The notes under the pieces were generated by a model. The model saw only the letters and a program-made list of their open reading frames with translations, did no database searches and was not told the origin of the DNA. From assembly GCA_947174495.1 (NCBI GenBank), contig CAMWJC010000016.1:1-50256 (forward strand): a stretch of 50,256 bases of DNA. Reading direction: 5' to 3'. The position numbers were made by a program, and so were the translations under genes. The DNA is from an uncultured Lachnospiraceae bacterium (GTDB taxonomy: Bacteria; Bacillota; Clostridia; Lachnospirales; Lachnospiraceae). Positions 22,620-42,001 of the stretch are shown here, one piece after another (the first letter of the stretch is position 1; every line of letters begins with the position of its first letter).

Positions 22620-23365
22620 TTCCCTATCGCATCTACAGACTCACGCCGGTTCTTTTTAGCCTTTTCACGCTACGCATGCATTTTTGTTTCCGCTTGGTGC
22701 CTTTTCAGCATCGCTTCATATGAATTATGCACCCTGTTCCGCAGACGTCAGCAAGCTGCTGGTGTGACCACACCTTCCTCCGTCATATCTTATGATAAGG
22801 ACGGGGGCCATGGTGCCAGACAACCTCGAATTAATCTGTTCCCAATTTCTGACTGTTCATATCAGATATCTACCCGGTCAGCTGGCCCATTTCGGTAAGT
22901 AATGTCTGCTTGACAGCCGCATCTACTTTACTGCTAATGTTTTTTTCTTTTTGGTCCGCAGATATCTCAGTGAGTTGTGAAATTGACTGAGAAATTTAAA
23001 TACCATTCAAAAAACACCGCAAAATAACGGAATTTCAGCTATCTTGCAGTGTTTTTATAAAATCAGGCGAACCTGTAGTTGTTTGTCGAAGCCGGTCAGC
23101 ACACGGTCTTGGCACCGGCGGCTTCATTTGATAGATATAGAATAACAGATAAATATGTACAAAGTGTTACCGAAAAAGTAATAAATCATAAAGAATCTCT
23201 TAAAAGAAAAAAGAATATGAAAAATACACCAGCCGTCAAGTGTTCTACGGGGTATTCTCTGTGTTTGAACCTAGACACTGACGATACAGGCAAGCCCATA
23301 CTCCTCCCAGAACTGGTGTTATCTTTATTATAAAGCGAAGAGAGAAGAAATGCAATCGTAACAGA
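22620..23365. other. Non-coding, decayed region next to the integration site
   Basis: No intact gene is supported here. The part 22620-22915 is visibly more GC-rich than its surroundings and reads like a fragment of some other element. On the minus strand, 22995-22870 holds 41 open codons without a start (ending ...KVDAAVKQTLLTEMGQLTG), which looks like the C-terminal scrap of a helical protein. An open frame at 23079-23333 (+) has no ribosome site and low-complexity content. A GC-rich imperfect hairpin lies at 23088-23125. The stretch fits repeated insertion and loss beside a tRNA hotspot. Confidence 0.5.
23010..23056 (+). terminator. Long imperfect hairpin, possible terminator
   Basis: Arms at 23010-23026 and 23040-23056 pair over 17 positions with two mismatches, around a 13-nt loop. 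A-rich and T-rich ends make it a candidate terminator in either direction, though no active gene adjoins it. Confidence 0.45.
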
Positions 23366-23575
23366 TCAGCCATGCACATTTATAAGTCACCAGAATCGGA
23401 ACCGTTCAGCCATGCCATTCATAAGTCACCAGAATATATACTTTGCCAATCCTATAGTGAATTGGCTGGTGACTTATTTCATGTCGGGCGTCTGCCCTAT
23501 AGAATTGATTGTACAATTTGTTCTTAGTGAGCAAGCTCACACGTACAAATTGTACAATCAATTCTGCATGGCTGA
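23366..23575 (-). repeat. Element A: structured BOX/REPIN-like repeat
   Basis: Read on the minus strand, the element starts with TCAGCCATGCAGA (23575-23563). Then comes a perfect 21-bp stem (23501-23521 with 23545-23565) enclosing the inner hairpin GTGAGC-TT-GCTCAC (23527-23540). A 31-nt block with a small GGGC/GCCC hairpin follows (23473-23503), then stem 2 (23466-23477 with 23421-23432, 12 bp perfect). The end is formed by two ~30-nt tail units (23406-23435 and 23366-23396) separated by 9 nt. The ends are 10-bp inverted repeats, TCAGCCATGC and GCATGGCTGA. Element B at 41776 has the same plan with different stem sequences. It contains no protein-coding frame worth calling. Confidence 0.85.
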
Positions 23576-23717
23576 ACTGTTTACACATTTAGCGAAGAAA
23601 GGTTTTTCTTTGGCGGGAAATTGGTGTATAATGAGTCCAAAGGTTAAAATTACGGGAAATCATTTGATTATTTTGTATTGACCAAAACCAGAATATAGAC
23701 ACAAGGGGGACTACAGG

Positions 23718-40113: not shown

Positions 40114-41769
40114 ATGGTTACAATTACAATCAACGGGGAAAAGAAGCAATATCCCAAAGGAACTCTATACGAAGAAATTGCAAAAGAATACCAGCCAGCC
40201 TATAAGGACATGATTGCGTTGGTGATTGAAAACGGGAAGATCAGGGAGCTGATCAAGCCGGCAGTGAAAGACTGTGAATTGTCTTTTCTGACAATTCGTG
40301 ACAATATCGGACATAAGGCATATGTGCGGACAGCTACCATGATGCTTGTGAAAGCGGTATATGATGTATTAGGAAGAGATATGGTCAAAAAGGTCAAGGT
40401 AGAATTTGCTATCGGACAGGGTTATTACTGCCGTTTGAAAATGGATGAAAAGCTCACCGATCAGCATGTAAGGCTGGTTGGCGATCGGATGAGAGAATTG
40501 GCAGAACAAAATATTCCGATTACCAAGAAGTCTTTTTCCATTGATGAGGCGATGGAAATTTTCAGAAAGAATCGTATGGAAGACAAAGAGAAGCTTTTTA
40601 GGTATCGAAGAAGTTCTTTTGTCAATATTTACTGTCTGGATGGGTTTTACGACTATTATTACGGATATATGCTCCCAAGCACGGGATATTTGAAATATTT
40701 TGATGTCATGTTGTATGAAAATGGAATCCTGCTTTTACTTCCAAGCATGGAAGCCCCCGATAAGATCGAATATTTTGAGCCTAAGGAGAAATTTTTCCAT
40801 ACGCTTATGACCTCTGCAAATTGGGGAGAGATGATGGGAATCGATTCGGTGGGAGATTTAAATGATACCATCTGTGATGGACAGATTCATGATATGATTT
40901 TGGTTCAGGAAGCATTGCAGGAGAGAAGGATTGGTGAGATTGCAAAAGAAATTGTAGATAGGGGAAATGTAAAGTTTGTACTGATTGCAGGTCCATCATC
41001 CTCGGGGAAAACGACCTTTTCCCACCGGCTTTCCATACAGCTTAGAACTTATGGAATGATACCGCATCCGATTGCGTTGGATGATTATTTTGTCAATAGA
41101 GAAGACACACCCAGAGATGCAAACGGAGACTACAATTTTGAATGTCTGGAAGCCATTGATATCAAGAAATTCAATGAGGATATGAACCGGCTTTTAAGCG
41201 GAGAAACCGTTGAACTGCCTCAGTTTAATTTTAAACTGGGAAAGAGAGAGTACCACGGTAATTTTAAGAAGCTGGGACCGGAGGATATTCTTGTAATAGA
41301 AGGAATTCACGGCTTGAATCCAGCAACCACGCTATCCCTACCAAATGAAAGTAAATTTAAGATTTATATCAGCGCATTGACCAGTATCAATGTGGATGAG
41401 CATAATCGAATTCCGACAACGGACGGAAGATTACTGCGGCGTATGGTAAGAGATGCCAGGACCAGAGGAACTTGCGCAAAAAGAACCATAGAAATGTGGC
41501 CGTCTGTGAGACGAGGTGAGGAACAGTACATATTCCCTTTCCAGGAAAGTGCAGATGAAATGTTTAATTCCGTTCTGATCTATGAACTGGCTGTATTAAA
41601 GCAGTACGCAGAACCGCTTCTTTTTGGAATCAAAAAGGGAGAGCCGGAGTACTATGAGGCAAAACGTCTCTTAAAGTTTTTGGAATACTTCCAGGGAATC
41701 GACAGCAAAAATGTGCCCTCCAATTCCATCTGCAGGGAGTTTATCGGAGGGAGCTATTTTAACGTGTAA
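40114..41769 (+). CDS. TGS-domain nucleoside (uridine) kinase-like protein
   Basis: A 551-residue protein combining an N-terminal TGS domain (VTITINGEKKQYPKGTLYEEIAKEY) and a threonyl-tRNA-synthetase-like second domain (residues ~60-200). It ends in a phosphoribulokinase/uridine kinase domain with Walker A LIAGPSSSGKTTFSHR near residue 290. ALDDYFVNREDTPRD and EGIHGLNP complete the kinase site. The domain pairing is well known in Clostridia and Thermotoga, with nucleoside kinase activity expected. An ACAGGGG site supports the ATG at 40114; the frame is open from 40093. Confidence 0.88.
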   Translation: MVTITINGEKKQYPKGTLYEEIAKEYQPAYKDMIALVIENGKIRELIKPAVKDCELSFLTIRDNIGHKAYVRTATMMLVKAVYDVLGRDMVKKVKVEFAIGQGYYCRLKMDEKLTDQHVRLVGDRMRELAEQNIPITKKSFSIDEAMEIFRKNRMEDKEKLFRYRRSSFVNIYCLDGFYDYYYGYMLPSTGYLKYFDVMLYENGILLLLPSMEAPDKIEYFEPKEKFFHTLMTSANWGEMMGIDSVGDLNDTICDGQIHDMILVQEALQERRIGEIAKEIVDRGNVKFVLIAGPSSSGKTTFSHRLSIQLRTYGMIPHPIALDDYFVNREDTPRDANGDYNFECLEAIDIKKFNEDMNRLLSGETVELPQFNFKLGKREYHGNFKKLGPEDILVIEGIHGLNPATTLSLPNESKFKIYISALTSINVDEHNRIPTTDGRLLRRMVRDARTRGTCAKRTIEMWPSVRRGEEQYIFPFQESADEMFNSVLIYELAVLKQYAEPLLFGIKKGEPEYYEAKRLLKFLEYFQGIDSKNVPSNSICREFIGGSYFNV

Positions 41770-41775
41770 CACCAG

Positions 41776-41983
41776 TCAGCCATGCAGAGAGTATGCCCGA
41801 AGGATTGGGTGAGCTTGCTCACGGAGGGCATTCGGGCATACTCTCTATAGGGCGGACGCCCGACATGAAATAAGCCGGCAGTTGATGAGTTCCGTGAGAG
41901 AAAACAAAAATTCAGCCGGCTTATGAATGGCATGGCTGATTGATGGAATCATTCAGCCGGCTTATGAGTGGCATGGCTGATTG
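41776..41983 (+). repeat. Element B: structured BOX/REPIN-like repeat upstream of rnpB
   Basis: It begins with TCAGCCATGCAGA (41776-41788). A perfect 16-bp stem (41786-41801 with 41831-41846) encloses the conserved inner hairpin GTGAGC-TT-GCTCAC (41809-41822). The 31-nt block at 41844-41874 differs from that of element A at one base. Stem 2 is ATAAGCCGGC/GCCGGCTTAT (41870-41879 with 41915-41924). Two 32-nt tail units (41911-41942 and 41952-41983) differ at one base and are separated by 9 nt, as in element A. The ends are again TCAGCCATGC and GCATGGCTGA. It ends 18 bp before the RNase P RNA. Confidence 0.87.
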
Positions 41984-42001
41984 AAAAATATTATAACGCA
42001 T

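Follow-up and report, generated by a model that had tools for sequence, protein, structure and literature searches.

A widespread repeat family of Lachnospiraceae with IS66-like ends and a conserved four-helix RNA-like fold

Two described systems come close to the repeat studied here, one at its ends and one in its interior. Insertion sequences of the single-ORF ISBst12 group of the IS66 family have the same type of end (GTAACnnnTCAGC) and make 8-bp target duplications as the repeat does. They differ from it in that the repeat has no transposase gene, its interior being a conserved RNA-like fold instead. A published ISBst12-group element whose transposition has been observed has ends of GTAACTGCTCAGCA and an 8-bp repeat (PMC12898284), and a table lists two Paracoccus IS66 elements with 8-bp repeats (PMC3281130). 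The interior resembles the RNA class Clostridiales-1 (Rfam RF01699), which appears as a row of a table in its discovery paper (PMC2864571). Both have a closing outer helix, a long variable hairpin with a GCTTGC apex and a helix with a tandem-GA loop (YATGA / GAATR), whereas the two short helices of Clostridiales-1 come in the other order. MITE-like repeats that are transcribed in UTRs or as small RNAs, namely bcr1-bcr3 of Bacillus cereus and QMITE1/QMITE2 of Coxiella, are likened to the element by their description only and not by sequence or fold (PMC3446304, PMC5896051). Among the bcr repeats, bcr3 was the only one that went with an altered decay rate, tabled as 3.6 vs 2.5. Literature searches in which IS66, MITE or mobile elements were combined with Lachnospiraceae or RNA structure did not bring up the element among the matches listed.

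The window, a stretch of 50,256 nucleotides from an uncultured Lachnospiraceae bacterium, carries two copies of the repeat, A and B (Table 1). At Rfam cut-offs, RNase P RNA was the only known RNA matched in the window. By contrast, the covariance model R2, which was built from 67 copies with A and B both in the building set, scored A at 181.8 bits (E 5e-50) and B at 139.1 bits (E 8e-38). On alignment the two copies have ends of TCAGCCATGC / GCATGGCTGA in common, together with the GTGAGC-TT-GCTCAC hairpin at the apex and a 31-nt block, CTATAGGGC(A/G)GACGCCCGACATGAAATAAG. Stem 1 is paired without a mismatch in both copies (A, 21 bp; B, 16 bp), and stem 2 measures 12 bp and 10 bp, respectively. 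Identity between A and B is only 39% in stem-1 columns, compared with 87% in the conserved core. An earlier note on this DNA had described shared ends, apical hairpin and block around stems that differ between the copies yet pair within each, a description confirmed by direct reading, alignment and the R2 scores. The note set the limits of A too narrowly, as the outer ends reach 23358 and 23584. The two tail units that it reported in A and B are present but are not typical of the repeat. The 25 copies flanked by target duplications (see below) have a single tail, and each duplicate in A and B carries the stem-2 arm of its own copy, indicating that the tail duplication is a private feature of these two copies. 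B lies 4 nt after a stop codon (41767-41769) and 65 nt upstream of RNase P RNA (42007), and the gene directly upstream of it belongs to a kinase family (PF00485).

Table 1. Features of elements A and B and their positions in the window.
Feature	Position	Strand	Remark
Element A, outer end to outer end, including duplicated tail	23358..23584	-	sequence; model R2 match 23404-23577
A 5' terminal inverted repeat, GTAAACAGTTCAGCCATGC (minus-strand reading), outer helix 5' strand	23566..23584	-	
A stem 1, 5' arm, 21 nt	23545..23565	-	
A apical hairpin GTGAGC-TT-GCTCAC	23527..23540	-	
A stem 1, 3' arm	23501..23521	-	
A short hairpin GGGC-AGAC-GCCC, within the 31-nt block	23486..23497	-	
A stem 2, 5' arm	23466..23477	-	
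A stem 2, 3' arm	23421..23432	-	
A first 3' terminal repeat, GCATGGCTGAAC, outer helix 3' strand	23404..23415	-	
A duplicated tail: second stem-2 3' arm and second end	23358..23403	-	degraded in G045 orthologue
B first unit	41774..41941	+	model R2 match
B 5' end, AGTCAGCCATGC, outer helix 5' strand, decayed terminal repeat	41774..41785	+	
B stem 1, 5' arm, 16 nt	41786..41801	+	identical in G045
B apical hairpin	41809..41822	+	
B stem 1, 3' arm	41831..41846	+	
B short hairpin GGGC-GGAC-GCCC	41850..41861	+	
B stem 2, 5' arm	41870..41879	+	
B stem 2, 3' arm	41915..41924	+	
B outer helix 3' strand	41930..41941	+	
B duplicated tail	41951..41984	+	97% identical repeat

Six copies in the genome that carries the window are full-length, one of them decayed at its 5' end, and several fragments are present besides. 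A first model, built from 15 copies, found matches in 23 of the 37 genomes of the genus (E up to 0.01). Across the family it gave matches in 124 of 397 genomes and 114 of 334 genera (E up to 0.001), of which the weak ones are uncertain and may be plain hairpins. In this family-wide search 18 genomes exceeded 100 bits, 16 of them from other genera. Faecalicatena contorta (L359) is among the named carriers. Sixty stretches surrounding matches were retrieved and read. The matches in the own genome, the genus and the family rule out that only two copies exist and bear out the earlier proposal of one repeat family. With A as the query, neither a phage nor a plasmid collection gave a match, and viral contigs held no exact match to the block pattern. 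We regard the family as real and widespread, and the repeat as a probable MITE with a deep RNA-like fold, the fold being strongly supported.

Short forms of the element, reduced to the outer helix and stem 1, were seen at L005 (G000), L072 and L434 (G019), L433 (G006), L435 (G043) and L440 (G045), the hairpin and stem 2 being absent between stem 1 and the 3' end. The 8-bp duplications at L005 and L072 agree in 7/8 and 8/8 bases, respectively. The fold was also found in tandem arrays of two or three units, at L177 (G158 C19), L176 (G158 C53) and L194 (G164 C7). Clostridiales-1 likewise occurs in tandem arrays, at L263 (G016 C34) and L262 (G008 C1).

Read from stem 1 onwards, the predicted fold consists of stem 1 with its conserved apex, a short hairpin of consensus GGGC-GNAC-GCCC and stem 2, which is entered via a CATGA / GAATG internal loop, all enclosed by an outer helix of GTTCAGCCATGC / GCATGGCTGAAC. 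Changes on both sides were found in 27 of 57 pairs among 15 copies, including 19 of the 21 in stem 1, and in 54 of 57 pairs among 67 copies. In the 67-copy alignment (A3, which omits twelve of 76 loci, mostly near-copies) 94.0% of the cells were paired, compared with 69.6% after shuffling, and the covariation score was 0.586 against at most 0.093 with partners slid; because the structure had guided this alignment, the figures are biased in its favour. The test on 67 copies confirms what had been noticed in A and B, namely that the stems are variable and yet paired. Unpaired residues of the apex, the block and the GA loop are conserved too. It is strongly supported, at the level of sequence comparison, that the interior of the element would form one conserved four-helix RNA-like fold. 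A presumed likeness of the apex and block to part of 16S rRNA was considered and then dropped.

Since every G.U pair on one strand is an A.C on its complement, a process blind to the strand would be expected to yield equal numbers of the two. We counted mismatches in 77 copies, the forward matches of 76 loci, from which reverse-strand matches and the extra tandem units of L176, L177 (third unit), L194, L195 and L201 had been dropped. Stem 1 was located by Watson-Crick matches only, making the count independent of the model. The 1648 stem-1 pairs included 59 G.U, 7 A.C and 60 other mismatches. Counted as distinct events over 49 arm clusters there were 49 G.U, 7 A.C and 49 other (p 7e-9, G.U vs A.C). 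G.U exceeded A.C both in copies with terminal repeats (30 to 4) and in those lacking them (29 to 3), and in 68 of the 77 copies the fold was more stable on that same strand. This excess points to selection on a predicted RNA of one strand; a mutational strand bias under transcription could add to the excess.

The comparison between copies, from which L215 was omitted for its short stem, gave a different picture at close range. G.U and A.C were near equal among the closest copies, 4 to 3 at an identity of at least 0.9 and 19 to 13 at an identity of at least 0.8, whilst the bias appeared in wider comparisons (50 G.U vs 18 A.C at identity 0.7). Recent copies thus seem to drift freely, with the G.U signal stemming from deeper lineages. 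We count the near equality in the closest pairs and the 60 other stem-1 mismatches against selection on the RNA. Double changes were frequent in close copies (identity of at least 0.8), double transversions (21) being about as common as double transitions (22). These frequent double changes are what would be expected if the stems mattered as DNA, maintained by template switching or as structures seen by a transposase, or did not matter at all, the RNA being unselected. Template switching has been reported to create and mend the stems of RNA genes (PMC8794818). Such a strand-blind process would not, however, give the 49 to 7 excess of G.U events, nor does it fit with conserved unpaired residues in the apex, block and GA loop, and we consider it improbable. 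Upkeep of a pure DNA palindrome fails on the G.U excess and is kept as a rival only for part of the paired changes. Template switching within the stem would fit double transversions being as common as double transitions, and it is possible that the paired changes arose partly in this way, beside selection for pairing.

The arms of A and B had been interpreted in the earlier note as cassettes, exchanged as pairs between otherwise fixed elements, a reading favoured by the almost complete difference of stem 1 next to a conserved core. Other copies do, however, share the arm sequences of A. They recur with at most two pairs changed in L002, L003, L005, L050, L051 and L214, and such A-like arms occur elsewhere in the own genome as well as in other species. 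Intermediates between A and B also exist: along the chain A, L173, L057, L052, B, stem-1 identity runs 0.81, 0.90, 0.93 and 0.63. In the closest relative, G045, the orthologue of A at the same site is 92% identical over 447 bases including flanks and has the same arms except for two one-sided stem-1 changes. At the B site of G045 stem 1 is unchanged and the rest of the element is missing. L050 and L051 have identical stem-1 arms within flanks that, by eye, are homologous in two species. From the recurring arms, the intermediates, the orthologous sites and the L050/L051 pair it follows that arms differ by lineage and are inherited at the site. The graded intermediates and the arms kept at orthologous sites contradict a wholesale swap.

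The site before RNase P RNA is present in all 37 genus genomes and was examined in the 30 with a retrieved locus. The model finds elements there in G000, G045 and G019, and remnants were recognised by eye in G049 and G008. The G019 copy (L335) and the G008 remnant (L326) are of another subtype than B. In different species the two subtypes lie at nearly the same base after the stop codon that precedes RNase P RNA, as exchange of arms at a fixed element would predict. In a tree of the upstream gene, however, G000, G045 and G049 form one clade and G008 and G019 another, among genomes that lack an element at this site. As the subtypes thus fall into separate clades, two insertions are more likely than exchange, and many losses are possible. 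Taken with the intermediates and the orthologous sites, this leaves the exchange of paired cassettes very improbable.

Inverted repeats resembling GTAACAGTTCAGCC, with at least 10 of 14 matches at each end, were found at both ends of 45 of 81 copies (the 77 copies together with L005, L072, L264 and L261:1128). The ends of A match at 12 and 12 of the 14 positions, whilst those of B match at 8 and 7, leaving it outside the 45. An 8-bp target duplication, with at least 7 of 8 bases agreeing, flanks 25 of the 45 copies with terminal repeats, compared with 0.7% in re-paired flanks, and agreement between the flanks of the 45 is maximal at exactly 8 bp. Y1 elements are not known to make target duplications, so the 8-bp duplications argue against a REP/REPIN with a RAYT (Y1). 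The end motif is present in 34 of the 37 genus genomes, with up to 59 occurrences per genome vs at most 3 for a reversed control. Ends of the GTAACAGTTCAGCC type were also noticed on other small repeats with different interiors, at L269 (G042 C1), L275 (G041 C95) and L274 (G040 C41). One of these is ~330 bp long and largely self-complementary; one end type thus serves several families.

IS66 transposases occur in 21 of the 37 genus genomes. Among 30 IS66 loci that we checked, L300 (G051) is an IS66-family element of 1824 bp with a single transposase gene, an 8-bp duplication and ends (GTAACTATTCAGCC) that are 12/14 like those of the repeat. A pair of similar ends was found at L298 (G019) and one end at L303 (G044); most of the 30 loci lacked such ends, and some loci are cut by contig ends. 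Relative to the NCBIfam IS66 cut-off of 180 bits, L300 scores below, at 144, and L298 above. R2 detected no repeat fold in the IS66 loci L298, L299, L300 and L303. No partner element bearing these ends turned up in the own genome (78% complete), and its IS66 element was rejected as a partner as that locus lacks a pair of them. The flanks of A agree in 2/8 bases after the first 3' end and, by eye, show no target duplication at the outer end; B, also by eye, has no clear one. The duplications at A and B may have decayed, or have been lost with the duplication of the tail. Their lack of a clear target duplication and the missing own-genome partner count against mobility. We conclude from the sequence evidence that the ends of the repeat are of the IS66/ISBst12 type, and we infer that an IS66-type transposase would move it in trans.

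The position of the repeat relative to genes was assessed in 80 copies, the 77 plus L359, L402 and L264, using open frames found mechanically. In 23 of the 80 a stop codon on the same strand precedes the 5' end by no more than 12 nt, and in 7 an opposite-strand stop follows the 3' end within that distance. With the distance set at 80 nt the two counts are 35 and 22 of the 80, a weak bias. The TAA inside the GTAACAG terminal repeat explains part of the stop bias, yet the counts for the two sides differ although the repeat itself is symmetric. Copies without terminal repeats sit behind rubrerythrin genes in G404, G211 and G007, behind a ribosomal S9 gene (by eye), and behind tRNA genes at L210, L220 and L221. 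At L213 and L224 (G273 C26) the element is preceded by only about the last 25 codons of a rubrerythrin gene, as though a piece of flank had been copied along with it. The element directly follows the stop codon in 2 of 80 named rubrerythrin loci, and the 3' end of rubrerythrin was dismissed as a generally conserved home. An intrinsic terminator was likewise rejected, there being by eye no T run directly after the outer helix of A or B. We tentatively suggest that the RNA might form a stable structure at the 3' ends of transcripts or close to them, which could make insertion just behind a gene harmless or mildly useful. The suggestion is tentative because the whole case consists of conserved position, sense orientation and fold.

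In a permissive scan of 34 loci with RF01699, seven full-model-length matches lay on the strand of the element, in B (24.3 bits), L211, L200, L221, L218, L219 and L176 (24-37 bits; cut-off 48). A had no RF01699 match at E up to 0.5. Scores of 24-37 bits alone prove little, since hairpins of the same loci reach 40 bits by chance with microRNA models. Clostridiales-1 itself is above cut-off in 11 of the 37 genus genomes, with three copies in the own genome. One bridging copy, L264, is accepted by both models, RF01699 (49.8 bits) and R2 (62.1 bits), and L261:1128 scores 41.4 and 47.6 bits, respectively. It is possible that the element and Clostridiales-1 belong to one superfamily, as opposed to the element being a member of Clostridiales-1.

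The double score of L264 would also suit a repeat that is primarily a host non-coding RNA of Clostridiales-1 type, captured in some lineages between IS66 ends, with the mobile copies, A and B included, as by-products. In line with this, copies without terminal repeats retain both the fold and an excess of G.U (29 to 3), and they stand behind rubrerythrin, ribosomal S9 and tRNA genes. However, the position behind rubrerythrin is rare (2/80), and R2 recovers just 5 of 17 further Clostridiales-1 loci, weakly (16-28 bits). Clostridiales-1 copies are themselves dispersed in G013 (L243, L256, L257 and L258), with 91-96% identity over ~200 bp, sharp edges and unrelated flanks; a search by eye for target duplications at these copies led nowhere. 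On balance, a host RNA as the primary entity seems rather unlikely.

We consider it probable that A and B are instead copies of a non-autonomous MITE-like element with ISBst12-type ends and a conserved RNA interior, the arms of which have drifted by paired changes. Such an element, of ~185 bp and with no gene inside, would be mobilised by an IS66-type transposase acting in trans. Transcripts running into it would carry the four-helix fold, and selection at the RNA level would preserve this fold in the lineages that spread. The helices of A and B would have drifted apart through paired changes, each in its own lineage, prior to the insertion of these two copies. Whether this amounts to a class of bacterial transposable elements that bear a working four-helix RNA as cargo, related to Clostridiales-1, which acts on host transcripts and thereby aids the element's own survival, is a more speculative step that we put forward with some reserve. 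If true, it would in outcome give bacteria an equivalent of SINEs and other RNA-bearing elements, though one that an IS66-type transposase moves in the form of DNA. Independently of that step, the repeat links an RNA-like fold related to an orphan Rfam class with a named transposon type and offers an experimental handle on both, with the fold and its strand, the ends and their target duplication, and the type of partner all defined. The orthologous and paralogous copies also make up a natural set for following how the long stems of an RNA acquire changes on both sides yet stay paired, and for asking whether selection acting through G.U intermediates or template switching brings this about.
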